From Chloromonas sp. AAM2 (Eukaryota; Chlorophyta; Chlorophyceae; Chlamydomonadales; Chlamydomonadaceae): a stretch of 48,777 nucleotides of DNA. The notes under the pieces were generated by a model. That model had not been told where the DNA came from. It worked only from the letters and a program-made list of their open reading frames with translations, and did not search any database. Numbering within the stretch: the first letter of the stretch is position 1; the number at the start of each line of letters is the position of its first letter. The translations under genes and the position numbers were made by a program. The DNA lies in assembly GCA_004335635.1 (NCBI GenBank), contig QAXH01003779.1, forward strand, positions 1 to 48,777, in the 5' to 3' direction. Positions 12,701-46,900 of the stretch are shown here, piece by piece.

Positions 12701-15065
12701 CCCGGGCTTGCCCTGCATCAGCACTGGGCCGTGCTATATATTTGTCATGCAATTTTTGCTCAAGGCTAACTTGCTCAGCTGTTCCTTGCAATCAAATTTG
12801 TGGAGGTCAAGCAGCAATCCACAGCAACACACAGAAACCAGTTGCAGCAGGGGTGTCCGCGTGTGGGCTGTCCGCGTGCACAGGTGTATGGCGAGGGCGT
12901 TGACATGTGGGCTGTCCGCGTGCACAGGTGTATGGCGAGGGCGTTGACATGTGGGCTGTCCGCGTGCACAGGTGTATGGCGAGGGCGTTGACATGTGGGC
13001 TGTGGGCTGTGTGTTGGGTGAGCTGCTGGCGCACCGCGCGCTGTTCCCCGCTTCGAGTGAGATGGAGGCGCTGCGCATGCAGGTGGAGCTGCTGGGGACA
13101 CCCACTAGGGACACGTGGCCGGTCAGTGGGAGCCTGGGGCGAGCAGATAACTGAGGCACAGTTTGCTTTGTGCCTGGAACTCCAGGGCTGAAGTGTAGAT
13201 GGCGTCAAGCAGTGAAGCATGTCAGCCTGCCTACTGCCAATGTCTTATCATTTGCAAGCTTCTCGGAGAGCTAGGCTCTGCAAATTGCTGCCTGTGTGCG
13301 ATTGGCTTGTGGGTAGCAGAAGGGTGAGTTGATATGGAAATCAAGTCCAGAGCAGCCTCTTGTGTGTGGAACTACCGATGCAACGCCACGGCATCAGTAC
13401 TGACAGTAGGTGTGAAGCGCGTTGATTCAGACCGCTGGTGGATTTGTTGCAAATAGATGGGTGCTTCAAGACGTCGCACTTGTTGTGTGTGCTCAAGACA
13501 TGGTAGATTATGCTGTTCTCGCGCAGGGCATGGCCAGTCTTCCAGCAGCCAGCATGTTCAAGCTGCCTCACCAGCCCCACTGTCGGCTGCACACGCTGAC
13601 GGAGCCGTTCACCGGACACCCCGCCCACAGACACAGTTCCATCCCACACCGGCACCGCAGCGCATCCCCCGATGCACACATGCGGCGTGCGCGTCCGGAC
13701 TGGCACGAGCGCAGTGCTTCCCCACGCAGGCGCCATGCGTGGGATGGTCACAGGTCCGCCGACAGGTCAAGATCAAGATCAAAATCTCCTCACCGACGCT
13801 CACATGACCACTCGCGTGACAAGGGCTGGCGCAGGTCCCGTTCGCCTGCCAACCGCCATCAAGACAGCCCGCACTGTCACCACAGCACAGGCCGCAGGGG
13901 CCAGGGGGCCTACAGGGATGGCGAGGAACGGTGGCAGCTGCGGGACAGCCCCCAGGAAAGGGAAGACGAGGCAGCCCACGGACGCAGGCGTTCAGGAGGC
14001 CGTGCATCCGACCACCACCACCATCACCACCACCACCATCACAAGCAGGACGGCAGGAGACGAAGCAGAGAAGCAGGACGGAGACACAGTGTCGCTACGT
14101 GCGATAGCAGAGAGGAGCACGAGCCGCTGCTGCTGCACCTGCTGCGTCACCTCCTGGCCTGGGACCCCTCGCACCGCCTGTCCGCTCGGCAGGCTCTGGA
14201 GCACGCCTGGTTCAAGGTGCGCCGTGCACACAGGCCCACAGTGTTCTGTGTCAAAGGGTTTGCATGGGGTAGTGAGCGTGCATGCCATGTAGGTGCTTCT
14301 TCTTACAGCGGAAAGATGCATCATCAATCAGCATCCTTTGCTCAGGTCAGGAATGCCAGGAAGCATGCGTAGATAGCAACGCTGTCAACTGTCAAACCCT
14401 ATGGGGGCACATGATTGCACAGGCAGGTGATCAGCATGTGGCTACTCAATCAGATGTTACCAACTCACGTGATCTACTTGATTCTATTCGACATCATCCA
14501 CAGGCTGGCACGAACAGGTATGGGTTGTGGCATCATGGCCGAGCTAGAAGTGCTTCACCTTGTGCGGCACGTGTAGTTAGGCCACACATGTTTCCAACCA
14601 GCAGTGCTATCTGCCTGCGTAGGAGCTACCTTTGCCCTGCCGGGTTGAGGACATGCCCTGCTCTCCGGTGCCGGAGGAAAGAGGCCACACACACAACGCA
14701 CCCCTCGCGCCGCAAAACAGGCTGGCGCACAGGCGACAGGTAGGCAGGCTGGCAGGACTCGTGCTGACCATGACTGTGGAGGTTGGTGCTCTGATGTTGG
14801 CAACAGGCAGACTCGGGCAGAACAAACAAAACAGAGCTACCACGAACAGAGGTTGCAGTCGAAGAAAACTGCACGTGACTTCAGTGACACGTGCCCAAAG
14901 TGTCGCCACATGTGCTCACACTGCGCTGTGCAGGGTGATGCAGGGCCAGGCGTCTTCATGATCAACAGGGAGGCCGAGCAGGAGCAGCGCTGGGCCCACG
15001 CGTTTGACAGTGGTAGCGCAGGGGCTGGGGCCAAGTCACGAACAGTATTCCTTCACAGGGCTTAG
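9786..15065 (+). CDS. CDK10/CDK11-like protein kinase with RS/His-rich insert, 12 exons
   Basis: Exons: 9786-9847, 9991-10086, 10266-10379, 10638-10686, 10831-10884, 11090-11146, 12182-12243, 12408-12492, 12972-13121, 13527-14216, 14623-14739, 14859-15065. They give 580 residues in phase. Kinase landmarks: glycine loop GEGTYG (25-30), lysine in VALK (47), TSIRE in place of PSTAIRE (61-65), HRD (140-142), DLG in place of DFG (160-162), [15 protein letters not shown] (175-189), and DMWAVGC. The TSIRE helix and the [14 protein letters not shown] loop point to the CDK10/CDK11 (PITSLRE) group, which acts in transcription, splicing or cell-cycle control with a cyclin partner. Residues about 270-438 are an Arg-Ser and His-rich block inside the C-lobe. 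The domain then resumes with [20 protein letters not shown]. Exon 11 (ELPLPC...) matches the usual post-kinase segment. The last exon adds a Cys-rich tail. The last two exons are a little less certain. Confidence 0.85.
11484..11902 (+). other. Unexplained open frame in the 1-kb kinase intron
   Basis: The intron between kinase exons 6 and 7 (11147-12181) is the longest in that gene. It contains an open frame of about 139 codons with no early ATG. Its first half has protein-like composition, with acidic and aromatic residues (for example [14 protein letters not shown]). I do not recognise a family. It could be a transposon remnant, a retained-intron product or chance. Confidence 0.3.
12840..13003 (+). 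repeat. 44-bp tandem repeat spanning an intron-exon junction, three full copies
   Basis: The 44-bp unit carries the end of an intron (GTGCACAG) and the first bases of kinase exon 9. Acceptors fall before 12884, 12928 and 12972, exactly 44 nt apart. A partial fourth copy lies upstream, near 12861. Only the last acceptor gives the correct kinase frame, because 44 is not a multiple of three. Confidence 0.9.
13527..14216 (+). other. Kinase exon 10 carrying the RS/His-rich block
   Basis: This 690-nt exon, entirely in frame, encodes the insert between kinase subdomains X and XI. It contains repeated RS, SP and [12 protein letters not shown] dipeptides and a run of ten histidines at 14013-14042. 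RS dipeptides are typical of splicing-speckle proteins. Their presence fits a CDK11-like nuclear role, but that is inference. Confidence 0.85.
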
Positions 15066-15199: not shown

Positions 15200-15456
15200 A
15201 CTCTTTTTCTTGTGAACATGTCTTAAAGTGGGTAAGATCCACCTGTCAGAAGCTGGTCAGAAGCTGATTTCTGGCGGTATTCCCAAGAAGTGTCCCAGAA
15301 CTGGCAATTTGTTTTTTTTTGGCAGCTGCTTCACACACAACGTTTCTTCAACTATGCTTTGCTGCCTGAGCATTGACACGGGATCATAGCTAGGAAGGCA
15401 AATCAGAGCAGGCCGATGACAGATGTGTGCGCGTGACTTCAATGCATGAATGCACA

Positions 15457-15573
15457 CAGTTGAGCACCTATCCACAGACTTCCTTACAGTTGAGCACCAA
15501 TCCACAGACTTCCTTACAGTTGAGCACCTATCCACAGACTTCCTTACAGTTGAGCACCTATCCACAGACTTCC
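15457..15573. repeat. 30-bp minisatellite, about four copies
   Basis: The unit begins CAGTTGAGCACCTATCCACA. Copies start at 15457, 15487, 15517 and 15547; the last is incomplete. One copy differs by a T-to-A change. Because 30 is a multiple of three, a minus-strand frame runs through it as ten-residue repeats, but nothing else in that frame looks like a gene. Confidence 0.9.
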
Positions 15574-20510: not shown

Positions 20511-23500
20511 TTATGCTCTGTGTGTGATGACGCCCGTGCCTGGTGTCTGTGTCTGCACGTAGCCATGCAGGGTCGGTGTGATGACTGAATCGTCAAGGAC
20601 ATGCCACACGGTGTTGACCAAGCCACTAGCCAACTTGGCCGCTGCCTGTGCCGCTGCATGGCCGCGCGAGCGCCTTTCCAAGGGGTCGCCCAAGAGGGAC
20701 AGCAGCGCCCCTGCTAGCTCAGTGCTACTGCCCACGTGCCATACTGCGGGCCCTGTGCTGCGGGAGAGCTGCGTGGCGGGCAGAACAAAGTGCTGGGCTG
20801 CTGCCGCACCGTTGTGCGCCATTGGAGGCCGGTGTTCCTGCTGATGTGCTGACCTGCAAGCAAGAGAGGAATGCTCAACAGAGCGTAAGCATGGTGTGTT
20901 CCTGTGTGCCTGCAGGTCTGAACGACATAGATGCTGCGGTAAAGAGGCATAAAGCCATGGCCGTGCATGCAGGCGGTGCATGATGCTAGAGCTATGATGA
21001 CTTCGCACCTGCTTGCAAGGCTAGGCACAGATGCTTGTGAGTTGCTAGCGACAGTCCTGTGGCCCAAGCCCAGGCCAGACCCTGCAGGCTGCTGCTCCTG
21101 CTGCTGGGTTGGTTGCTGTGGGTGTTGCTGCTGTGGCTGCAGTGCTGCTCTGCCTGTCCCGCTCATGATTTCATCAGCTGTGGTGGCACAGGACGTCGAG
21201 GTGGAACCGTTGACGGTCTTGTGCGCGAGAGCAATTGACGGATTCACGGCTGAGTAGACAGAGGGGCCATTGCCGTTTGCTTGTGTGGCCGTGGCCTGCA
21301 CAGGCAGTGTGCATGTTGTTCAATTAAATGAACGTGTGCTCAGCACAGGCTGCCAATCCCTTGCGAAAGCGGCAAACTGATGCGACATTGCGTGCAGGGA
21401 ACATTGCTGACTTGAAACTCTGTACACATGGCGCGAGGTGTCGCATCAGAGCATCAACATGCAAATCCCTACCTGGGCGCGGGTGTGTGGCAAGGAGGCC
21501 ACAGTGGTGCCTGTCCAGGCTGTCTTCTCACTGCTGCCGTGATCCACCACAGTCGGCTGCCAATCTGACTGCAGAGACACAGCCATGGACGCATGCTGGG
21601 TGTTGTCTGGAACAGTTTGGTGGTGCCGTCCCAGTAGAGCTGGTTGCAGTGGAGCCTGTGCAGAAGGCCTGGTCTGGACAGCCGGTGACAGGGTGATGCC
21701 GCTGGCTGGGTGCGCTGCATCAGGAGTGCTGGATGCGGTGGCGGCCAGAGGTCCACTCATGTGGGAGACGAATGCAAAAAGGGAGCCGTTTGAGCTGCCT
21801 GTGGTGCTGCTGCCGTTAAGGACCACTGGCAGCCGCTGTGTGGCAACGGCTGAGACGGATGCGAGGGCTGGGGCAGGAGCAGTCGTCACGCTTCCCTCGT
21901 TGGAGCTATGGCTGCTGGAGCTTGAGCCTGCGCTGTCCAGAATGAGCGCATCGTCCCCAAGGGTGGGCATGCGTGTGTAGGCCGAGCGCACGGGTGCAGT
22001 GCCAGGGGGCGCGGGGTGTGGGGTCACAGAGGGGCCTGCGCCTCCTGCGCGTGCCGTGGCTGACATCCTGCTTGTGCTGCCGTTGTGGGTGAACGGCAAT
22101 CGCAACTGTTGTAACGACGGCACAGCCGACAAGATGTCAGCCATTGAGTTGTCTGACCGCATGGAAGAAGGGGTGCTGATGCTGCTCCCCTGCGATAATC
22201 GTGTCACGAACTCCATGGGTGCGGCCATAAGCACAGGCCCGCTTGCGCCAGGCATGACCAGCGGTACGGTGTCAGGCGGTATGTTGTAGCAGGAAACAAA
22301 TGGCTCGCCTGCAGGCTTGCCGTCCAGGGTAGGCATTGCGGCTCCTGATGCGGCAGCGAGAGCGCTTGGCTTCGTGCCAGCAAGCCTAGGTGAGCTGCCG
22401 CCCATGTCGGCAGAGGCACTAGAAACACGCAGGTTCAGTTGCTCCCAGGCAGCGGCGTCCGTGCCGTCTGCCTGGCTCGCACCCACCACAGTGGCTAGGC
22501 CCGCCATGGCCACTGCTGCATCTAGCGCTGCAGCCACGCCCAGCGACTGAACACGCAGCGAGTATTCTCGCAAGCTGGCAAATGATGACGCGCTCATCTC
22601 GCTCAGCATCAGCTGGTCCAACTGAAGACTGCCTCCACTGCCGCTGAAGCTGCCGCTGATGCTGTCGCTGCTACTGGCCTGCAGGACCTCGGGCCCCAGC
22701 AGCGTCAGCAACTCCTGCAGAGCAAGCTGGACCTGCTCAGGCCCTGCTGCACTGGCTGAGCGAGGCTGTGAACTGGAACCAGGTGCGGGCTTTGCAGCAA
22801 GCGTGGCTTCCAGAACCGTCACGAGTCGCTCTGTAGTGGCTAGCAGCTGTGAACGGTCCTCTGCCCCACTGCCCGTCGTGCCATCAGCAGCAGTCTCCGC
22901 AGACTGCAGCTGTTCTGCTGCACTACTGCTGCTGCCAGGCTTGCCGTCGGTGAGGACGTTTGCCAAGCAATTGAGCAGGTCTGGGCCCAAGAGGTCATTG
23001 CCGCTGCCATTGCTGCTGCAGTTGCTGCCAGGTGCTGCATCAAGAGAGAAGATGGTCGCTGGTATGGGCTGGCCTGAATCATCAAACAGCTTACGGAATG
23101 GTGATCGCGGCGAAAGCGGTATGGCATCTAATTCTGACCAGTTATTGACAGCATCAGCTGAAGCGCCCATGGCAAGGGATGTGATAGCTTGCGCTGTTGC
23201 ATGGGCGCTGCTGAGAACCGACTGCACAGCTGCCGAGTCAGGTGGAAGCGCAGCACAACATTCTGCAGCAGTAGATCGGACCTGGTATGCAGCACGCCGT
23301 GATGATCGGACACCAGATGGAGGCAAGCTTGCTTTGCAAGGTGATGGCAGGGGCTCTGTTGACGAAGCGGCAACCAAGCCACTAAGCATGTGCTGCGCCG
23401 CAGGTGACTCGGGCGATGCCGGCTTTGCAGGTGATGCCACTGAGTCGGTGGTATTTGAACGAGGCCGTTGAGCTGAATCAAACAGCTGCTCTGTGAAGTG

Positions 23501-26500
23501 CAATTGAGGTGTGCTGTGGAACCAGGCTGCAGAGCTGGAGGAACCGTATGAGCGCAGGTCTAAGCTTTCACGCGGCCGGAAGCGAGGAGTTTCTGGCTCA
23601 GACTCATCATCAAGCAAAGCCTGCCTGTTGCTGTAGCCACCACTTGCTGCTGCCGCACTGACATGCGAGGAGAGACGGAGAGCCTTGCTGTCTGCTGCAT
23701 CAGCTTCGCGTCTGCATGCACTCTGAGAGAAGAATCGGTTGTTGATAGAGCGGGCGTTCAAGACCGCTGGCGAAGCAGGGGCGCTGTCGGTGCGTGGCGT
23801 GGTTGCTGTAGAAACGGAGGTGGGCGATGTCAGCGCTGAGTTGCCTTCTGGCAGGGTCGCAAGGGCATGCAGAGGCAGGCGACCACTGCCTCCCAAGGAC
23901 TGCGTGCCATGACCTTGGCGCCCACTCCTGGAGGCTGCCTGTTGCTGGAGCAGCCAGCTCGGCGACCGCCGCGGCACCTGTAAGCTGTCACTGCTGACGT
24001 CTTTGCTAGTGCGCTGCGCATGAGGCTGCACTCCCAGGCGCTCATTCCCTGCCGCTCCCGCAGCCGATGCTATGCTGTCCTCAGATCTTAGCGGATCCAT
24101 GGTGCCAGCATCAAGGGCGAATGGGTTTGGCCGGTCGTAGGTAGCTGTGGAAAACGGCGACGTGACTGAGTTCATGGCAGACAAGCGAGACGTGGGTGTA
24201 GCAGGCTGAGAGTCCTCGTCTGCTGGTTGGTCCGACTTGCCCTGGCCCTGTGCCAGCCGTGCCATCAGCATGTCCGACAAAGCCTCAGCAGTGGTGCTGT
24301 CCAGGCGTGATGGCAGGCCGGTGCTGTCCGCAAATGGGTTTGGCCGGTCGAACACAGAACTTGCGAACGGCGACATTGAGCCGTTGATGACTGACATGCG
24401 TGAGGTTGGGGTTTCAGGCGGGGCTTGTTCGTCCTCAAGGTCTGGCGATTGGTTGGCTGCCAATGCCTGTAGCTCGGCAATGCTGAGTCCTGGCCAGGGT
24501 AGCTGCTCGTGGCTGCCTGCACGAGGACTAGGTGGTGGCAGGGCGGATGCTCGAGGGCTGATAGGTGGCATGCTGGACGAGCTCACTGCTCGGGATGGCG
24601 CTGCTTCCATTGCACGTGGCGTGCGTACGTTGCGCAATGATCCCACGCTGTGAAGACTGCCTGAGTTGTCACGCGACACATGGCCCTCACTACTGCCCAC
24701 GATGTGCACCAATGCGGCTGCATTTCTAGGCAAGCTTGCACCCGACCCGACAGCATCTCCTACCTCGACCCCCTGCACTGCCTCAGCCCCATCCGCTGCA
24801 GAAGGGCGTGGGCTTAATGAGTACTCACGAGCAACAGGCATCTCCGCTCCTACCCGTTTGTTCTGATCCGAGCCATTCCCGATCAATACAGGTGTGCTCC
24901 CAACAGGATGAAGGGTTCCTGAGTATGAACTGATCCGCATGGCCTGCATGAGAGAGGTGTTGGCAGCCTGGTGCAAGCCGGAGGCGAGCGGGTAGTTGGG
25001 TAGACCGCTGCCTGGTGCTGCAGAGACAGCTGAACGCAGGGGCTGCAGTGCTGCGCTGTTCACCACCAAGTTCAGGCTTCCAAAGTCGCCCATCCATCCA
25101 GACACTGACACTCGCATTGGGTTGGTGGGTGAGCCACTGTCGGAGCGTTTCCACATTCGATCACTGCGCACAGAGCTGCAGGATGGGCTGCCGGGGTCAC
25201 TGTGAAACAGGCCAGCAGAAGACCGGCTGCTGTTGGCACTGTTATGCTGATTCAACCCTGGCTGCAATCCTGGCGCGCTCACGGGGACCTTGCTCAGTGA
25301 TGGAGAACATGACACCGTGTCAGTTGCAGAAGTGCTAGCTGAGGGCACCGTTGGCAAAGCAGCAAGTGTAGCAAGGATGGGTGGGGGTGACCCCGACCGG
25401 AACGGTGTGGGAGCCACACCAGAAGCATAGGACAGACGGGATGGCTGGTGCCTAGCCGAAGGCATTGCCATGCTCATAGCAGTCTGCAGTGGCAGGCTAC
25501 CGGCATTCTCTGCTGATCGTTGCTGATGTGCCGCATGCGAGGGGCTGCCCACGCTCATCTTGAATTCAAAACTTTCACGACGAAGTAGTGGTGCGGAGCG
25601 GGAGGACAGCTCAGGGCCAGATGTGAGGTCATCGTCTTCTTCGCCCATTCCCCATGCATCTGATAACCATACATGTGTGGCTGCCGTGGTCTGAGCCCGT
25701 TCAGCGTTGCTAGCAACGGCAGCATGGCCGCCATTGGCAGAATTTGCAGCGTGCGAGTCACGACCACTGCCCTGTACTGGCTCACGCGATGCAGGTTTGC
25801 TTGCAGCCACTGCATTCAGTGCAGCCATGAGCTGCTGGGATGTAGCAGGCTGTTGTGGGGCGTATGCAGGGGCAGGTGAGCCTGTGCCTGTCAATCGAGG
25901 TGACAGGCAATCTGGGGTAGAGGTCGCAGTCCAGGTGCTGTGTCTCAGTGTCAGTTTGAGTTTCTGAGCCCGTGTCTCCAGTGCTGGGTCATCAGCAAAG
26001 CTGGTGCTGCTAGCTGTGGCCATTGGGCTGCTACATAGGCTGCCAGCACTGGCCACTGCGGCTAGGCGAGAGTTGAGCAAGTTGATGCCAGCAACGGAGC
26101 CATTGGCAGAAATACGCACAGGGTAGTGGCCGTTGCTAGTTGCCAAGGGGTTGCTTGGTACGCCCACGGCAGGCAATGCAGTGTGTGAAGGAGCAACTGC
26201 CATGCCTGCAAGGGACGCCTCAGTGCTCCGCAGCGTGTGTAGCAGAGGCAGAAAGGTGCCATCGCCTTTAGACGTGGCAAGGAATGGAGGCGCAGTGCGC
26301 GGACGTTCGGTTTGTCCCACTGCTGCGGGCGTGACAGGGCCACCCTGAGTGTTGAGAGACCCCTGCGCCAGCTGCACACCACACATTGCGCCCACCATAG
26401 CCGCCACCATCACCAGTGACATGCTAGCAGTTGGGGTTGAAGAAGCATGCACTGTCACAGGCTTGCTGTCATCAGCCTCAGGCACGGGCTCAGTTTGAGT

Positions 26501-29500
26501 ATCTGAATCCTGCACGATCTGTGTAGACGCGCTGTGCCTGGCAAAGGGTGACTGCAGCATGCGTGAGATGACAGCTGGTGCAGGCAACAAGCCGCTTAGA
26601 CGTGTTGGGCTTAGGGTGCGCTGCGAAGCAGGACTGGCTGTGCGCTGCGAAGCAGGGCTGGCTGTGCGCTGCGAGGCTGGGCTGGAGCCGAACGTGCTGC
26701 TGCCGCATGCAGTACTGCCTGATGCAGTTGGGGTGCTGGCGCGGCTGCCAGTGGGTACACCGTCTGTCCAGGGTGCGGCGTCCTGCAGCCAAGCCACATG
26801 TGACAACTCAGACGCATACCAGTCTAGCACACTGAGTTGTACACAGTGCGCAAACACTAGCACACTGTGTCAGCTACTGCACCATGTGCGCAAAGGCACA
26901 CACGACCCTACTAGGCAGCCACCCACCTGCACGGCGGCGAACATGCGGTCCCAGCGCCTGCCACTGCCTGCCAAACCGCGCGGGCTCAGACCGCCCAGCT
27001 CCCGCGACCGCATCCCCACCAACTCGGATGCAGTCCTGACCGCAGGTGACGATGGCAAGGAACCTGTAAGGCTGCTAGGCGGGCCCTGGAGCGCACTCAG
27101 TGCCTGCTGCTGTGGCTGCTGTGGCGGTTGCTGTTGTTCGCTGGCACGTGGCGACAGCCACTCGGTAGTGGTATGCATGGGCGCCATGCCTAAGTCGAGC
27201 GCTGGACCACGGCCAGCCAAGGGGGCCTGCACACGTGGCGACCCATCCTGAAAGTTGCCTGATCCCCCTGGGCTGACCGACAGCGTTCCACTGCCACTGC
27301 TGCCAAAGTAGTGGCGCACAAGTTGACGTTGGCTGGTCTCGCTGCACAAGGAGTCCGTGTCCGACACGAGAGTGCGTGGGGAATCCAATGCGAATTGGCT
27401 AAATTGGCTCAACTGCGATGCAAGCATGGGCCGGCTGCCGCCTGGAAGGCTGACGGAAGGCCTGCACGCACAAGAAGGCAAGAGCGTCTGCTTGTCAGCG
27501 AGGTGCGTTGAATACATACCAAGGTACCACGGGCGTGCCAAGGAGTCAGCTACAAAAGCATTACATTCCGCAGACATGGCTACACAGGTTGCAGGTGTCC
27601 ACCATCACGTGTCAAGTGTGCGGGTGTTGAATCCACGTTTAACAACCATGCCTATCTGGCAAGGCTGAACTCATGTTCCAAGCATGCACATGTGCCTACC
27701 TGCCAGTGCCATCAGCAAAGGCACTGCCCGTGCTGTGGCGCTGCACTAGCCTATGAGGGTTCCCCAGCAAGCGGCTGGCCAGTGCGGCAGTGCCACCGTG
27801 TGCCTCGTCCCCACCCAGGTCCTGAGAGGTGTGCGCTGCGGAGCGCGGGGGCGAGGTCGGCGCGTCATCCCAGCCACCATCGTCCATGACCTGTCCTGTG
27901 CTGCGCACCGCTGCCGCTGCATCCTCTGCTGCCATCACTGCAGCATTGTTCAGCTCCTCCGCCATGTGCTCGCTTGAACCTGCGCAGCCAACAACACGTA
28001 CAGCGGTGTGCCAGTGCTGTCGTCAAGGGCATGCGTTGTCAACAGGGGTAGATATTCAAGCTGTGGCCGCGTGATGTATGCACAGACACAGTGTAAGTGC
28101 TTGCTTGTACGCCAGGTCGCACCTGCATGCGGTCCGAGCAGCAGTGCCGTGCCGGCCACTGCCGCCTGGGCCAAGCTGTGGCCGGAGCAGCCCTCCACCA
28201 GACTGTTGCCCATCAGTGTGATTTCACACATCCTACAGACCACCAAGCATACACTGGGTTGGCAGTCAGGTAACTGCACGTATACCCATGGCAAGGTTTT
28301 GGATGTGTTGGCCATGTAAGCTTTAGTTCACAGTTAGACTGGTTTGTACTTACGCCATGCCAAGACTGACTGGCCATGTCAGACAGCCAACGAACTCACG
28401 TTCTACACGCTGCGCAATGTTTGATCAACCAACTCGAGTATTTGACAGTCACCCACCTGTAGAACATGGGCAGCTGCCTGGCATCGTCCACCAACAAGAT
28501 GTCCATGTTGGCATCTGCACCCATAGACGCAAAGAATGCACACAAACAGTTATGCATGAGGTCATCAGCGACTTAGATGGAATTCATCCAAGCAAGCCAC
28601 ATTGACGTGTTGGCTGCTGCTGAGCGCCTAGCTGGTTGGTCCTGCGGTACCGTGGGTTGAACCTTGAGAAGCTGTGTAATGATGAGGATCCAAGCAAGCT
28701 GGCAATCAGGAGTCGCAGGAGCAAACTCACATGATAGAGAGTCCTGCATGCTCCAGATGGCCACGCGCAGTCCCATCTCCCCCGCCAACAGCTGTGCCAC
28801 CTCCTGGCAACGGCCCGAGTCCTGGGGCACCACCACGGTCACCAGGCTGGGCTGCTTGGCCGCACACAGCTGAGGGGCCAGCTGCAGGTGCAGCCTGCCC
28901 ACCACCTCCTCCTCCCCTTGCACTGTGTTGGCAGCGAGCCATGTGGGACGCCCGGCAAGAGCTGCACACATCCAGTACACATCAACTTTGACCATGCCTA
29001 AAGCTAGCACATGATTTGCCTAAAGCTAGCACATGATTTGCCTAAAGCTAGCACATGATTTGAGTGCAACAGCGTGTGCCACAAGCCTGGCCTGCATCGC
29101 CTTGTGCGGTGGCAGTCCCACCTTCTTTGAGCTGCAGTAGCGCCATGTCCGCTGGCTTCCACAGGTGCCACACGCTGTTGCCCATCAGCGCAGCGTACTT
29201 GAGCTCGTTGCACCACCCAGGCATCTGCTTCATGGTGGCGCCAAAGATGCGAAAGCGACCAACGTCCTACATGCACACAATGTGTTCACACAGTGTTTCG
29301 AATTGAGCGTGCCAACAGCGCCCAGCATTGCTGTCAACCATGAAACATGCTTGGCTCCCATGCCTGCGACTCACTGACAGTATGCATCAGCAACAAGGTA
29401 CCGGCAAAGACCACATGTTCATGGGCCGACATGAACATGGGCTGGTGCTCATGCAACATGCGCTCAAAACTCACCACGTCGCTTTGTGGGATAATCAGAG

Positions 29501-31057
29501 CGAACTTATCCAGCATGCTACCCAGTGTGGACCGCAAGTGGCGTTTGGCATGCCACACATGGAGGTCGCTGGGTTCAATGTGGGCATTGATAAGCGCCAG
29601 TTTCACTTGGAAAGAGGCTGCCAGAAGTACCAGCTGGGGGGAGAAGGGGGACTCCTACGCGCACCAAGGGCAGGTACCGACTGTCAGCATGCAAGGCCAT
29701 ATGCATTGTGCCGGCGAATACAGAAATTCCAGACAGCGTGCAGTGCTTTGTTGTGATGTGCTTACCACCAGGATGCCCACTGTAGGTCGCCACCTCCTCA
29801 TGAACAGGCTGACGCACACGGCATTGTCCAGAGGCATCATCTGCACAATGACCTGCAAGCAAACCAGTGCCAGCATCAACCATGACTTCTGGACATGCGA
29901 TGCAGTTGACTGGTGGCCATCAGCAATCCACCCTCTCAATCAAAGTCGCCAAGTTTTTTTTTGCTCAGTTGCTTGCACTCGAGCACACTTGACTGACTTG
30001 GCGCTCATCACCTTGAGCCTTTCCAGAGCCTTCATTGCCAATAATGCTCAACTTCAGGGGCATGGCACTGATGCTGTACTGCTCATACATCCAAACTTGT
30101 ACTGGTTCAGCCTTCCTAAGCAGCGCGTCGGACTGCTTGCATTCCAAAGCACCTACTCTAGGAGGAAGGGAGGACCGCAGCATGTTGTAAGCCTCCACGG
30201 ACGCAGTAGTCAGCATTACAGCAACCTTTTCATTGTACTCCTGCATGCATGGCGTGTTGGTTGGCTGGTCGTCCTTCCACCGCCACCACCGTCAATTTTT
30301 TGTGGAAAAGCCAGAGTGCCAAAGCCAGGGGAACTGATCCCTTACCATGGCGGACAAGCTGAAGGCGAACATCATCACTGTGGCAGGGCTGGTGGTGGGG
30401 CTGCCGGGCAGGTGCCACCTATCTGTGCTAGCATGCTGAAGGGCCAGCACAGGCAACTCACCAGCAAGCACCGGAACAGCACCGGCAAAGCGACTGCACA
30501 TTCGCCTGCGCAGGGCATATCCAAGTTGCACGGGTAGGCGATGAAGCAAGACAGGTGCATGATGGGAACGGGGCAGGACCGGTTCCCATCGTACTCTGAG
30601 CAACGCAGTTGGGTATGTACGCGCAAGTCTAGGCAGAAGCAGATGTGATAACAGAAGCCCAGACATCGTTGCAGCGAAATTGTCAGCCAGCGCTCACCAA
30701 AGGTGGAGGCGTGAAACCAAATCAGAGGCCCCGGAGACCTTGTATCGTAGGAGATACCCAAACGTTGCATCTGCGAGCCAAGCATCGGCGAAGCATGGTC
30801 AAGGGCTTTGCTGAATTAGGTTCTTGGCCGGCGATGCCACATGACCCTCGCACTCACAGTGGTAGTGGCTGATACTGCCTCCGTTCCTCGCCAATGCTTA
30901 AGAGCCAGGCCGGCAACTTGCACCGGGAGTGCCGATGTGGCCTGCGGTGCGAGCGGATGAGCCACATCATGCTACTGCGCGAGTCATGCTGGGACAATTC
31001 CTGCAGGTATCCTGCCTCAAGACACATCACAGCAGCTTGAGCAGCTGTATAGAGCAT
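20511..31057 (-). CDS. KDTA: 3-deoxy-D-manno-octulosonate (KDO) transferase, GT30, with ~2,150-residue insert
   Basis: Exons: 31057-30858, 30810-30698, 30505-30462, 30240-30157, 29852-29766, 29633-29475, 29266-29122, 28961-28731, 28514-28457, 28232-28123, 27979-27700, 27461-26927, 26782-21473, 21295-21009, 20853-20511. They predict 2,661 residues with consistent phases. WaaA/KdtA enzymes move KDO from CMP-KDO to lipid A or its precursors. The plant version is mitochondrial. N-terminal half: PGPLIWFHASTFGE (the conserved Glu is about 106), VMLTTAS, LALINAHIEPSDL, WLAANTVQGEEE, GNSLVEG...GHSLAQAA and GPHA (about 410). The family's C-terminal helices reappear only at about 2584-2630 (STELAGALLSLLGDP, LASGLVNTVWHVL). 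Between them lie Ser/Ala/Pro/Gln-rich exons. The usual ESELWPN segment is missing at the exon 5-6 join. The first exon is the least certain. Confidence 0.8.
21473..26782 (-). other. Giant 5,310-nt low-complexity exon of KDTA
   Basis: This single exon encodes 1,770 residues (about 683-2452) with no stop. The composition is rich in Ser, Ala, Pro and Gly, with many SP and TP pairs. Three copies of ASQRT(A/L)SP lie near the start. Two diverged copies of a TPTSR...SPF...DRPNPFA module lie near residues 1497 and 1567. No globular domain is recognisable. The plus-strand frame at 22659-23471 is its antisense shadow. Confidence 0.85.
28996..29061. repeat. 22-bp tandem repeat, three exact copies
   Basis: The unit GCCTAAAGCTAGCACATGATTT is repeated three times in the KDTA intron between exons 7 and 8. 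The copies appear identical, which suggests recent expansion. Confidence 0.95.
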
Positions 31058-38700: not shown

Positions 38701-41459
38701 GATTTTCTGACGTCAGGTTCCATGCATTGTTTCAGGTGAACAACATGGATGCGGTGCCCCGGCTCAGCCATTACAGCGTTGAGCTGGCCGTCATGGAGAT
38801 ATCTCGCAACAGCCCGCTGATCAGCATTGCAGACAACCTGAGCACCGCCATGACCAAAGTGAAGCAGGCGCTACCCTGGGGCGAAGGCTCGCCCACCGGC
38901 CAGCAAACCCGCAGCGGCGGGGCTGATGGATTGGATACCCGCCAGGCTAGTCTGCACAGCCTAGATCCGGAGCTAGCAATTGACATCTTGTCACCACCAA
39001 CACGACCCACTGAAGTTGAACTCGCACCTTCGCAGTTGTTGGTTCGGCAGCAGCCGTCGGTCTCGGCCTCCGCACCGGTCACACCACTCCCCAAGTGCGC
39101 CTCACAGCCCTCCCTGACGGCTCAGTGTCGTGACGGCCCGGTTGCAATGCGGGCGACACGAGGGTCTGAACTTGGAGAGCTGCAGCAGCCCGAAGCCACG
39201 TTTGATGCTCGGTGGTTTGGCGAAGGCGATGGACCAGATACCTCAGGATGGCAAGGCTCCATCCTTGGCAGTTGGCTGAGCAACCGTGGCTCGGACGATG
39301 GCGATGCATCTGCCCAAATGTGGGCTCCGGGACCTGGCAACAGGCGGCTACAGGGAGCCACAAGCCTGACAGCTCCGCGGGGCAACGACAACGGTGGTGA
39401 CAGCACCCAGCCTGGGCTGGGCGCAGCGACCAGTGAGCCGTCCAGCCCGTCTGAACGGTTCTACAACTGCTGGTCTGGCATCGTGGGTGCAGTCAAGGCC
39501 GAAGCGCAGGCAGCAGTTGAGGCAGTGAGCACTACATGGGATGCGTCCGTGAACGGCACACTGGGTGCAGTGACAGCCGCTGGGCGCCAGCAACCGCCCG
39601 AGGAATTAGTGGCTGGTGCCAAGGAAAACATGCCAGACGAGCGGCAAACCTCCCGTCAGGCACTGGTGTTTGACGACTGGGTGGTCCCAAGCTCTGGCTC
39701 CAGCCAAACAGCACGAGATGCTCCTGCTCAAGATCTCCGCTCAGGCAACAGTCGGCTTGGGCCTCTCGACGGCTCTGTAACTCACAAGGGCGACGCGGCT
39801 TGCAGCATGGACGGACTAGGCGTGATGCCACATGATGCGGATGCTGCCGGGGGCGGGAACAGCCGAGCAGAGTCGCCCTCTGCGGCAGTTCATGGTCCCA
39901 CCACCTTGCCAGAGGTGATGCGCCAGGTGGCCGATGATCTCCGGGAGGCATCAGATGAAAAGATGGCACACGAGGGAGAGGGTGGGGGTTCGGGAGATGC
40001 AGGCGAGCTTACCAAGGAGGACATAGCCAAGCGACTCACCCCCACCAAGCTGTACATCCCTGGCCGCATTCTTTGGGTGCTGTTAGAGGATCAGAACGTG
40101 GTGTGGGAAGCCATAAATCACAACAAGTCCTCACCGCAGAAAGAGCAGCAGCAGCAGCAGCAGCCGCCCAACATGCCCGCAGCGCCTCAGGACGCTGCTA
40201 ATGGCAACGCCAACGTGGCAAAAGGGGCTCCAATTAAGCCAGGGCTTGCTGCCACACCTGCCGTGGTATTAAAGCCAGAGCAGATTATGCCGCCCGCTGC
40301 CAACCAGCCGCGGCCTTGGTCCATTTCACGCAGGCCGGGGGCTGAGGATGCATCCGCAGGGGCCCAGGACGGCAGCAGCCTCGAGCAGTTTGGTCAAGGT
40401 GGCAAGTCTACAGCACAGGGCGATGGGTTTGCACAGTCGAGCAGGCCAGTGGAGTTGTCCATTGCTCAGGATTTTATGCCAGGGTTTGTGGATGTGGAGC
40501 GCTCGCTGTCAGGAGCCAGCAGTCAGCGGAGCAACAACTTGCCATCATTCAGTAGGGAAGCGCCGCATGGGAACTCCCAGGCTAGTGCACACGCGCTCGC
40601 AAGCCATCCAGTCCACCACCTGGACAGTCATGGTAGCCGGCCAGGTAGCTCGACAAGCACGGGATCGAGTTGGGTTTTGCCAGCTGGTTTCGCTGGGGGC
40701 CCACGACCAGGCAGCATGACGGGAGCTGTGCCCGGTGCGGGTTGGGGTGGTGCAGCAGGCGGTGCTAGCTCAGTTGGCCCAGGCAAGGGTGGGGCTGAGG
40801 GCATGGACTATGACGAGGGCAGTTTGTCCCAGCGGTTCACGTTGGGGTTCAAGCAGCTGCAGGACGGCATCGAGCAGGTGCTGGGCCGAGCGATGGCGCT
40901 GGACCAGCATGGGGAGCCGGCAGCACAGCGGCATGGTGGCCCGGATGGGAGCAGCAGCGGCGTGGGTGGTGGCGGGGCCAGCTGGGATGGCGGGTGGTCG
41001 GCATGGGGCATTGGCGGGGGCGATGGAGGCCAGCAGCAGATGGTGTGTCTGGTAGAAGCGGACCGAACCACCTTCGAGGAACTTTCCCTCGTGTCCTCTT
41101 GTGCAACGGATCACATCCCGGACGCGTACTACAGCGTGTTGAAAATGCTGCACATTGCGATCATGACTGGGAGAGTGCATGTTCCAGCGGCGCACAGAGC
41201 GAATCAAGGGCAACCAGGGAGGCGCGAGGATGTGCCTGCCAGTGGATGTCAAGCACAGCAACCGCAGGACAGCTTGGTTTGCAGCGGTGCGAGCGATGCC
41301 CAGCGGCAGGGTGCTGTGGGTGAGAGCAATGGGGGTGGTGGTGGCGAGTATGTTGTGGAAAATGCTTCGGCCGCAGGGCTGTTGGGGCAGGGCCCCGGGC
41401 ATCCCGCACGCACACCCGGGAAACGGCCGTGCGTCGCAGACCTTTGGCGCCTGGCTTGA
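32741..41459 (+). CDS. Dysferlin-domain and sn-1-specific diacylglycerol lipase-like protein, 12 exons
   Basis: Exons: 32741-32811, 33100-33346, 33668-33826, 34007-34090, 34341-35211, 35442-35576, 36475-36599, 36842-36918, 37129-37246, 37708-37804, 38101-38276, 38736-41459. They give 1,627 residues in phase. Residues about 10-100 match a dysferlin (DysF) domain: VVENQRYWG, DKPPWTD, then DEDGWLYGTQF and a basic VRSRVWRRL. After a low-complexity linker, residues about 490-780 are a class 3 lipase: LVLCVRGSMELGDICTDL, GHSLG (nucleophile Ser664) and NNMDAVPRLS (Asp725). Later pieces LYIPGRILW (about 1159) and ATDHIPDAYY (His1513) match the end of DAGL enzymes, completing a Ser-Asp-His triad. Animal DAGLs release 2-acylglycerol from diacylglycerol and have N-terminal membrane helices; here a DysF domain takes their place. 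Low-complexity blocks separate the catalytic parts. Confidence 0.8.
37529..37748 (+). repeat. Tandem-duplicated intron segment with a decoy exon start
   Basis: The acceptor and first bases of lipase exon 10 (37688-37735) have a diverged copy at 37529-37581, including a CAG followed by GATTTGATTGC. A CTGT microsatellite lies between them. The upstream copy soon diverges and its reading frame is not that of the lipase. Confidence 0.7.
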
Positions 41460-43274: not shown

Positions 43275-46200
43275 ATGACAAGCGTGTTGCAAGAGTTAGA
43301 GCAGCTCCGAGCAATACTGGAACAGCCACCTTCGCAGCCTTTCCAACTTGCTGCTACCTCCATGGCACAAGCCCCACGCATATCAGTTGCGCCTTACCAG
43401 CCTCAACCCTCGCTGCATGTGGCGGAGGTGTGTGTGTAGATATGCATTTGCCGCTCGACCTCTCTTCCATGTGACCCTCAGCCTTCCATGCATGATTATG
43501 CATGTCGGTCCGACCCATGTGTCTTTTGTTTTCTTGCTTCACAGCGCGGAGTAGACCGCTTGGGAAAAGCTATCGAGGTGCGTGGCACAATCTGGGCATG
43601 GAGCTGTCATTGGTTCAAGGCCCAGGCCCCAGCCATGCAGCACATGGTGTTTTCTGGCACCACATGGCGTCTTTATTAATCAGTTTGCATGTCAGCTTTA
43701 TAGTTGAAGTCAGTAACAAGGGCCAGGTTGGCGCCAGGGCTGGGTAAGTTCTTGGTGGACTGGGGCGTCCTTGTGAAGCACTGTTGTGGAGTTGAATGAC
43801 ATTACTGGGGCATAAGCGGGGGTGGAGGGGCTGTGACATTGAGGCCCATGCATAATATGCACTGGGATTAGCCTGGGGTGCATGGGCGACATGAATCAAG
43901 TTAGTTGTGTGTGCTAGTGCAGTACTGGCCACTGTGTATTAGGCTTGAGAAATCTGACCAGTGCTCTCATGCACACTTGAATATGAGCAAGCCTGCCAAT
44001 CCCTGCAGGCCGCTGAGGAGGAGATGGAGAATGCCCTGAGGCGCACGACCGAGGTGCACAAGAGCCAGCTGCGGCAGAAGGAAGTGAGTGGGCCCGGCAG
44101 CAGCATGGGGCATTGCATATCACAGCTTTTTTCGTTCGCACCTGAGATGTCCAGCTCTGCCCATGCACTCTCCATGTACTTTCCTGGCAGATGAGGGCTC
44201 CTGACGGTTCCGTCATCCTGACCTGATGGTTAGTGAAACCTGACGGTGATGGTTAGTGATAACATGCATAGTCTTGACGTGTTGCCTCTGGCATGGCAAA
44301 CATGCGCCCTGCTGCTTGCCCTTTTCCAGCATCAACACATGCTGTTGGTACGGCCTGGCAGGAAGGTATGCACAAACAAGCAAACAAACAAACACTGAAC
44401 AAGTAACACCTTGAATTCCTGGTATTATAATTGCCTACAATCCTAATCCCAGCTCAAGCTGTTCTTTCCACTCATGTGCTGCGTCCTTCCTGTCATTGTC
44501 CGCAGGTGGAGCTATCAGAGCTTCAGCGGCTGCTGGCCTCCAAGGAGCGCAGCATTGACAGCCTGAGGGACACGCTGGCGACCACCAAGCGCAGCTTTGA
44601 GGCGCGGCTGGCGCAGGCTGAGAGCGCACTATCACTCAAGGAAGCAGAGGTAGGAAGGGCGCGCAAGGAAAGTAGACGTAATTGGCATGCAGTCACTGCC
44701 AGGCATGACTCAACCTGGCTGAATCACTTCAGCTTGAGCAAAGCTCAGCCCAGGCAAGTGGGCTAGTAGCAGGACCTACAGCAGCGGGCCCCGCAGGTCT
44801 CACGGTCGCTGGCTGTGGGTTGCAATGCTTGAAAGGGGGCAAATGCCTACCAGCCAGCCGTGCCTGCCTGTAAGCACGCCTGTGGAGAAAGAGTGCTCAA
44901 TCAGCCACTTGGTGTGTTTGAGTTTGCCACGTTTGCGGATGCATGAACAGGCACAGACATTCGCAGTTGATTTGATGTGTATGTGTATGTGTATCTGTGC
45001 GTTTGCCGGTCAGGTGATTGCCATGTCGGAGGAGGCGCGTGTGCTGCATATGGAGCGGGACGCGCTGGCAGCGCAGGTCCAGAAGCAGGCCGTGCAGGCG
45101 GGGCGGGACATGGACGAGATGCAGGGGCGGGAGGCAGCGCTCCTGGCGGACGTGCGCAGCAGGGGCGAGGAAGCAGCACGCACAGCGGTGAGAGCAGGAT
45201 GGGAAGCATGCGCATGAGGGGTTGGGGGGCAGAGTGAAAGTGGAGCATGCAAGGGCGCGCATGGAGAAAGGCAGTGAGTAGGTGGCATCAGGCAACCAAC
45301 TATCAGTTCTGGCGGGGCCACTGATTATGGGTGCACGTTTTATTTGAATGGGGTTGATACATTCTAAGGTCAGTTGGGCAACGCAATCTCGTGGCTGGCA
45401 CCAAGAGCTGCTGCTGCACTTGAGGAATTGATGTTGTCAGTCGTCAGCTGACAAGGTTGAGCCTGAAGAGCTGACGTGCAAGCATGGAATGACCAGCTTC
45501 TGTGAAAATGTATGGCGTAAATGTTGCTTCTGCACGACCTGCCCGCTTCACAATGATGGGTGTTGCTTAGCTGTGTGTGCGATCATCTGCTGCCGTGCCC
45601 AGACCGCCCTGCGGGTAGAGCATGAGGACTCTGTGCGGCAGCGGGCCGAGCTCAGCGACATGCGGCGGCAGATGGAGCTCCTGACTGATGAGCTGCGGGT
45701 CGTGAGGGCAGAGAGCAGGGCGGAGCGGGTGAGGCTGGCGACACCCGCACATGTATGCATTCAACACTCCTCATGCAAACTCGCATGCAGAATGTCCCAC
45801 TCACACTGGCCAGCGACCATGCGCAACCCTGTTCACGCAGAAGCAGATTGCCGTCCAGGAACAGGAAGCGTCTTATGGCCATGCTTCAGCCAGCCTTTGA
45901 ACTGTGGTGCACATTAGTGTTGCTCTTGATGGAGTATGGGAGGCCATCATAACGCACATGTATGCGCTGCCCCTGCACAGGAGCGGTTGCAAGGGGAGGT
46001 GGACTCGCTGAGCCAGCGCCTGCGCACGGAACGGGGCGTCAGGAAGGCCTGCGAAAAGTGGCTGCGCTCAGAACTAAAATCAAGGGTAAGCAGCTGTTCT
46101 GCTGACTGGACCCAGCTAGCCCCAGGCACAGCTTCCGAGCTTCTTGCAGGTCACCAACACAGGTCTTGTGGGATGCCCAGGCCACCGGTTGGCCGGTTCT

Positions 46201-46900
46201 TCCGGGAGTTCCCGGGGCACCAAGTGCTGCGGCAGGCGATGGATGGATTCCAGGTTCTGCCGCAAGGTCCGCGAGGCGTGCAGCGTACTATGGCTGGCGA
46301 CTGTGCAGGAGGAGATGGATGTGCTGCTGAGCGCCATCCGGGAGGCGGCTGCAGGCAAAGCCCCGCTGGCACTCGGGGAGGCAGGCTCTGCGCTGCTGGG
46401 GGCCGGGCCACGCGGCATAGACCATGAGGACGATGCGTTGCTGCTGCTGGATGCGCTGCGCTTACATGAACATGGAGAGGGAGTACACCGGCATGCGGCG
46501 GGCGGCCACATGAGCGCAGCGGGGGCATTGCGAGCGGCGCCGGCGCATCAGGCCGTGATGCACTTGGATGCGCAGAGCCGGCAGGTAGGGATCGGGTTGC
46601 AAATGGGCACTGACGTTTGGGCAGGAATAAGTACAAGAGCAGGGCAGAACAAAAGACATCGGGCGTCTCTATTGCATGATCATAACTCCGAGGGGCCAGG
46701 TCATGCAGTGTAGGTGTGACCTCAGCCATAGGCGTTGACAGCATCATGCAGTGCTTTGGCTGTGTGGTGTGCTTGTCATCGGACTGCGCACTAAAGGACG
46801 CGAGTTGTCCCCTTGGCCGCAGATCGCGGATGAGAATCGGCGGCTGCAGGCGGAGCTCAAGTCCGTGCAAAGGTTCCTCACGCAAAAGCTTGCCAAATAG
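43275..46900 (+). CDS. Coiled-coil protein of unknown function, about 11 exons
   Basis: Exons: 43275-43427, 43545-43577, 44009-44083, 44330-44365, 44506-44649, 45014-45187, 45603-45728, 45981-46085, possibly 46150-46266, 46309-46584, 46823-46900. All are phase 0, so any exon can be dropped without a frame change. The product is 399 residues, or 438 with the uncertain exon. Heptad-rich helices run through most of it: AAEEEMENALRRTTEVHKS, LSELQRLLASKERSIDSL, LQGEVDSLSQRLRTERG, and finally NRRLQAELKSVQRFLTQKL. The N-terminal 50 residues are Gln/Pro-rich. No catalytic domain is visible. Such proteins are often centrosomal, basal-body, flagellar or tethering components, but nothing here decides between them. 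The short exon 44330-44365 is the least certain of the others. Confidence 0.7.

Follow-up and report, generated by a model that had tools for sequence, protein, structure and literature searches.

An algal GT30 (KdtA/WaaA) homologue with a changed donor side and a probable 2,157-residue low-complexity insert in its nucleotide-binding domain

Could a glycosyltransferase domain carry, within one reading frame, a low-complexity block of more than two thousand residues, and what might such a protein still do? The question is raised by a minus-strand gene of the green alga Chloromonas sp. AAM2, on contig QAXH01003779.1 of assembly GCA_004335635.1; the whole stretch analysed, 48,777 nucleotides long, is referred to below as the window. 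A preliminary description of this DNA had read the gene as KdtA, a transferase of 3-deoxy-D-manno-oct-2-ulosonic acid (KDO), split in frame by about 2,150 low-complexity residues. The reading favoured here, and considered probable, is that of a nuclear homologue of the glycosyltransferase family GT30 (KdtA/WaaA), in which a 2,157-residue insert on exons of its own interrupts the C-terminal, nucleotide-binding domain, the whole being carried by a single transcript, and in which the donor half is altered.

The gene runs on the minus strand from 30810 to 20511, where 14 exons, joined in phase, give 2,601 residues with no internal stop (Table 1). The exon borders were set from homology and splice consensus, and the chain begins at exon A; all 13 introns measure 111-304 nt. 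A frame of 1,807 codons from stop to stop was found here, and it is not there by chance, since 200 second-order Markov copies of the 20.5-28.2 kb region reached 575 codons at most (mean, 269). There are no N runs within the window. The coordinates, the strand, the open and in-phase exons and the splice sites given in the preliminary description are borne out by this chain and by the ranks of its junctions (see below); so is the giant exon, which is indeed open and in phase, and the size proposed for the insert agrees with that obtained from the ends as set here.

Table 1. Exons and associated features of the GT30 homologue (positions are those of the window).
Feature	Position	Strand	Content
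Exon A	30810-30698	-	RSPGPLIWFHASTF, N-domain; SxGE-type motif finished by exon B
Exon B	30505-30462	-	
Exon C	30240-30157	-	
Exon D	29852-29766	-	
Exon E	29654-29475	-	start at 29654: ESPFSPQL aligned to ETELWPNL
Exon F	29266-29122	-	
Exons B to F with introns	29122..30505	-	remaining N-domain; equivalents of G30, E31, E98 and K162 kept; W102 -> S
Tandem repeat in the intron between exons F and G	28995-29062		22-bp unit x 3.1, 100%
Exon G	28961-28731	-	donor domain begins; PQD instead of PRH (R212 -> Q)
Exon H	28514-28457	-	GDTMGELMLLY replaced by VDDARQLPMFY (G248 -> R)
Exon I	28232-28123	-	MGNSLVEGCSGHSLAQ...GPHA plus one base; N273 -> S, E276 -> Q; donor phase 1
Exon J	27979-27700	-	first part, 27939..27979, (G)SSEHMAEELNNAA, GT30-like after GPHA; phase 2 out
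Exon K	27461-26927	-	535 nt; phase 2 in, 0 out
Exon L	26782-21473	-	5,310 nt; phase 0 in and out
Exon M	21295-21009	-	287 nt; phase 0 in, 2 out; Gln-rich
Exon N	20853-20511	-	phase 2 in; ends in stop TAA
GT30 C-terminal part of exon N	20511..20753	-	GPAVWHVGSSTELAGALLSLLGDP...LASGLVNTVWHVL, stop TAA
Insert	20754..27938	-	2,157 low-complexity residues; range includes introns

The flanks of the block were compared with known GT30 proteins. An insert-free join, in an earlier version of the exon borders, matched PF04413 (Glycos_transf_N) at 86.5 bits, above the curated cut-off of 23.9, and the KdtA model NF004387, of 440 positions, aligned with the insert-free join from 42 to 417, through the C-terminal domain, with a score of 168.1 bits. 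In a PDB sequence search, the only credible matches were the KDO transferase entries 2xci and 4bfc. A separate hidden Markov model (HMM) was built from a panel of 14 bacterial sequences (that of Escherichia, three from other enterobacteria, and ten from records of a plasmid collection), to which the algal protein is 18-28% identical, the nearest being alphaproteobacterial (28%). With this model, the protein through GPHA scored 151.9 bits, and the addition of 14 residues of exon J and of the exon-N part raised the score to 164.8 bits, which was reached by none of 200 shuffles and by none of 200 equally long pieces of the giant exon replacing the N part. The first 22 residues of exon J raise the score to 156.6, a value that 5 of the 200 shuffled sequences and one of the 200 giant-exon pieces attained; a GT30 share of exon J is therefore likely, but less strongly supported than that of exon N. 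The preliminary description had the KdtA segment end at GPHA, and the match through GPHA holds, but the similarity runs about 14 residues further, into exon J.

A direct splice from GPHA to (A)AQHFVLPATQ of exon N, which is in phase and of the right length, was tried and rejected: the continuation through exon J outscores it on the panel HMM (164.8 as against 161.4 or 160.3 bits) and on all five NCBIfam models (by 1.3-5.3 bits), and the splice needs acceptors ranked 50 and 337 of 562 as well as a 7.3-kb intron. An exon-by-exon search, within its limits, found no second GT30 gene in the alga's own genome, and scans of genome and viral contig collections gave no algal relative. No algal KDTA with an insert is named among the literature matches listed, in a coverage that mostly leaves out subscription papers.

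The insert lies in the C-terminal domain, which binds cytidine monophosphate (CMP), about 14 GT30-like residues past GPHA. These residues, at the start of exon J, read GSSEHMAEELNNAA as against TFNFKDICARLEQA in E. coli, and the GT30 sequence resumes at GPAVWHV in exon N. In the structural model of Escherichia WaaA, this site falls at the end of helix 355-364 and in the loop that follows, residues 325-369 of the model being of low confidence. The insert takes up what is left of exon J (about 80 residues), all of exons K, L and M, and 100 bases at the start of exon N (33 residues). Since J and N carry these tails, any message that joins J to N retains about 113 inserted residues, whatever happens to K, L and M.

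As to its nature, serine, alanine, glycine, proline, glutamine and threonine make up 60% of the insert as against 41% of the core, and the label of low complexity given to it earlier is therefore fair. Exon L has no sequence match in Pfam, NCBIfam or PDB, and in the 74.4-Mb genome of the alga it matches only itself. Among motifs selected after inspection of the insert, there are 13 copies of [ST]PR (shuffle mean, 2.5) and two of NPF (shuffle mean, 0.1), plain [ST]P is not enriched, and a DRPNPFA block is present twice. The insert is probably disordered; the fold predicted for a 231-residue part of exon L has a mean predicted local distance difference test score of 39.9, which, coming from one sequence, is uninformative. 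Low-complexity insertions of this kind are probably common in green algae. From the genome, 20 stretches of 10 kb were sampled, of which 18 were nuclear-like (GC content of 0.50-0.56 without N); all five open frames of at least 350 codons in the nuclear-like stretches consist of 52-62% of the same six residues. The insert resembles these frames, which are candidate exons, in composition, but the longest of them has 712 codons as against 1,807 here, and the insert sits inside a compact enzyme domain. The low-complexity style is thus usual for this genome, whereas the size and the position of the insert are unusual.

Are exons J to N coding, and are they spliced together? A first codon table was trained on two other frames of the window (38703-41459 on the plus strand and 331-1611 on the minus strand), both of low complexity themselves. 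With it, the chain frame scores 0.41 bits per codon in J, 0.26 in K, 0.21 in L and 0.25 in M, and the remaining five frames of each of these exons score at most 0.01. At the five junctions from I to N, donors rank 1-25 among 383 GT and acceptors 3-25 among 562 AG. A gene parse anchored only at the 5' border of exon I and at the terminal stop codon returned exactly the chain I-J-K-L-M-N at exon penalties of -8 and -12, and a parse with exons limited to 400 nt cut K and L further, with a score of 520.7. On the same scale, the omission of K, L and M leaves 49.4 and the omission of L alone 147.5; the difference comes mostly from the coding score, and it speaks for the coding character of K, L and M rather than for a shared transcript. 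The phases permit K, L and M together, or L alone, to be skipped in frame. We infer that one transcript spans exons I to N.

The donor side was examined with the numbering of the Aquifex enzyme, transferred through the 2xci alignment and the panel alignment, with an offset that is our own reading. According to a review (PMC6286764), E276, R212 and N273 of Aquifex WaaA bind the ribose and phosphate of CMP, and the amide of G248 is one of several groups that contact the cytosine. The review also cites activity assays in support of R212 and of the acceptor-side residues G30, E31, E98 and K162. In the algal protein, these four acceptor-side residues are all present, and none of the four CMP contacts is retained (R212Q, G248R, N273S, E276Q); W102 is also changed (W102S). 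In the bacterial panel, G248, N273, E276 and W102 are found in all 14 sequences, and R212 is R in 12 and H in two Bacteroidota. The changed donor residues lie within exons G, H and I, distant from splice sites. The 1-phosphate-binding residues S28, S54 and R56 were set aside, since R is absent from the R56 column throughout the bacterial panel, which makes the mapping unsafe there. Of the 12 alignment columns that do not vary among the 14 bacteria, 6 are retained in the alga. When groups were left out one at a time, the alga kept fewer C-domain columns than the omitted group in all but one of the 7 cases. On this alignment, the donor site appears eroded while the acceptor-side residues remain. 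The GT30 homology proposed in the preliminary description thus stands on both sides of the block, but the KDO transferase activity that the name KdtA implies does not follow, given the four changed CMP contacts; the gene is, as far as its sequence goes, that of a GT30 homologue for which this activity is not established. GT30-like proteins in which GD replaces the catalytic GE were also seen on Marivivens and Aestuarium plasmids, the one from Marivivens adjoining kdsB.

The comparison with bacterial WaaA/KdtA can be put in the same terms: the alga shares the match over both domains, the SxGE-type motif, the acceptor-side Glu and Lys, the succession of motifs as far as GPH, and the C-terminal part, and it differs in R212, G248, N273 and E276 and in the donor-domain insert. 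Another eukaryotic homologue of Kdo transferases, likewise of unsettled role, is plant KDTA (At5g03770). In PMC4404806 and PMC12168206, it is described as a putative Kdo transferase located in mitochondria, the null mutant of which has normal rhamnogalacturonan II (RG-II), and a mitochondrial lipid A-like product is put forward there as a suggestion. When other steps of the pathway were sought in the Chloromonas genome, four further families gave a single match on an algal-type contig, to LpxC, which was weak and at the cut-off. A KdsB match was rejected as support for the pathway, its locus (L031) having a GC content of 0.34 and intronless genes of bacterial type. LpxB and LpxK had no match in the family search, from which nothing follows, since this type of search also misses the GT30 gene of the window. 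A plant KDTA sequence presumed to carry PRH, GEL and GHN..E and no insert was also used as a query, and its only match in the genome was exon I of the GT30 gene, with an E-value of 0.027.

Several results weigh against a single GT30 gene with an insert and an eroded donor site. The cut-offs of the five NCBIfam equivalog models for lipid IV(A) KDO transferase, which were built to serve bacterial and archaeal genomes, were passed in no case, the best score being 168 bits as against 617. The exon-N part, joined straight to GPHA, adds nothing (151.5 as against 151.9 bits), and the panel HMM gives no separate match to exon N in the full-length protein. Among the C-domain columns invariant outside Bacteroides, the alga and Bacteroides each retain 8 of 13, so that the overall divergence of the alga is not extreme and the point at issue is the loss of the donor site. 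The first codon table, being trained on low-complexity frames, gives low values to several GT30 exons (-0.47 for B and -0.21 for D). With a table made from exons A-I, the values are 0.04 for K, -0.01 for L and -0.03 for M, that for K being below the value of one of its reverse frames (0.08). The coding signal is therefore partly one of amino-acid composition, and the insert exons show it with the table from other frames of the window but not with that from the GT30 exons. The splice matrices, moreover, were built solely from the eight upstream introns, which is a small basis. At an exon penalty of -4, the parse makes six exons of L and two of N and scores 570.1 as against 556.8 for the chain; J, K and M are still returned as described, and L keeps its outer borders. 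Finally, exon J, read through its donor, meets a stop immediately, and a TGTAA follows about 130 nt beyond.

This last observation is the starting point for one rival, in which the gene has undergone fission or an early end: the GT30 message would stop just past J, and K, L, M and N would form a second gene that contains the former GT30 C-terminus. The TGTAA in question is at 27561-27565, and the minus strand has none for 1 kb past the stop at 20511. However, the number of TGTAA copies in the window is unremarkable (62 as against 51.7 expected, equalled in 10 of 100 shuffles), another copy lies in exon C, and TGTAA was rejected as an end signal; the J donor ranks 5 of 383 and the K acceptor 4 of 562, and upstream of K the open stretch has no coding-like score. 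Such a fission is considered very unlikely. Another possibility is that K, L and M are a separate gene on the same strand, nested in a 6.8-kb intron of a GT30 gene that joins J to N and keeps the insert of about 113 residues. J can be joined to N without a change of phase (2 to 2); upstream of K, its frame stays open over 47 codons that include an ATG, and downstream of M, the first stop in its frame comes at 20716. The extensions that this requires are, however, intron-like in score (-0.32 bits per codon upstream of K and -0.18 downstream of M), although these values are not decisive, some GT30 exons being equally low with the first table. The rank of the K acceptor and the shortness of all the other introns also speak against a nested gene, which is unlikely, if somewhat less so than a fission. 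A misassembly that put low-complexity exons inside the gene would be in keeping with a draft of 2,324 contigs that contains bacterial-type and plastid-like stretches; yet the window has no N runs, the phase is maintained on both sides, the giant exon has a single match in the genome, and the insert-like tails on J and N suggest a native insert, so that an artefact of this sort is hardly to be expected.

If the favoured reading of one split GT30 gene is kept, there remains the question of what the protein does. It might act as a KDO transferase in spite of the insert, with substitute contacts for the donor, a view for which the conserved G30, E31, E98 and K162, the LpxC-like exon on an algal-type contig and the two Bacteroidota of the panel that also lack R212 can be cited. 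Against this, N273, E276, G248 and W102, invariant in the 14 bacteria, are changed in the alga, and LpxB and LpxK were not found, albeit by the family search that overlooks this gene too. The active enzyme is a real possibility that falls short of an even chance. The same may be said, equally tentatively, of a GT30 pseudoenzyme: the half that binds membrane and acceptor would be kept, CMP binding would be lost, and the donor half would frame a phosphorylatable and skippable tether of 2,157 residues, which would make the product a scaffold or regulatory protein. A repurposed or pseudoenzyme role is thus about as likely as an active enzyme. In the mechanism proposed, the two parts of the split domain would fold together around the long tether, and the changed CMP contacts would leave ordinary CMP-Kdo transfer weakened, altered or lost. 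The GT-B fold would still bind membrane or lipid through the N-domain; this membrane-associated fold may carry the tether, with its many [ST]PR and two NPF motifs, or be regulated by it. The tether itself would perhaps be regulated by proline-directed phosphorylation and by splicing.

Other features of the window and of the genome were recorded in passing. The frame at 38703-41459 on the plus strand is a low-complexity open frame of 918 codons, some motifs of which presumably recall a class 3 lipase; Pfam gave no support for this, with nothing at an E-value of 0.1 in this frame or in nine nearby frames. The frame at 334-1611 on the minus strand is also of low complexity (426 codons) and has an NPF motif and no Pfam match. 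On the plus strand, an open frame at 13416-14369 has an RS/His-rich stretch and a weak protein kinase tail (E-value of 0.0015, under the Pfam cut-off), and 45930-46424 has a weak match to Lzipper-MIP1 (E-value of 0.0014, under the cut-off). Tandem repeats occur at 12862-13003 (44-bp unit x 3.2, 100%) and at 15456-15573 (30-bp unit x 3.9, 97%). Elsewhere in the genome, stretches L020 (C1170) and L031 (C1614) have long bacterial-type frames and GC contents of 0.39 and 0.34, and the assembly appears to hold bacterial contamination; stretch L028 (C2098) has a 2,535-codon frame with a GC content of 0.26, which resembles plastid rpoC2.

That plants retain GT30 genes calls for an explanation, given that the Arabidopsis protein resides in mitochondria and that RG-II is normal in the null mutant. 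The algal gene, in which the acceptor side is kept, the donor side is changed and an insert is added, makes a role of the GT30 fold beyond Kdo transfer testable. It would also be an extreme case of the size of low-complexity stretch that a Rossmann-type domain can bear.

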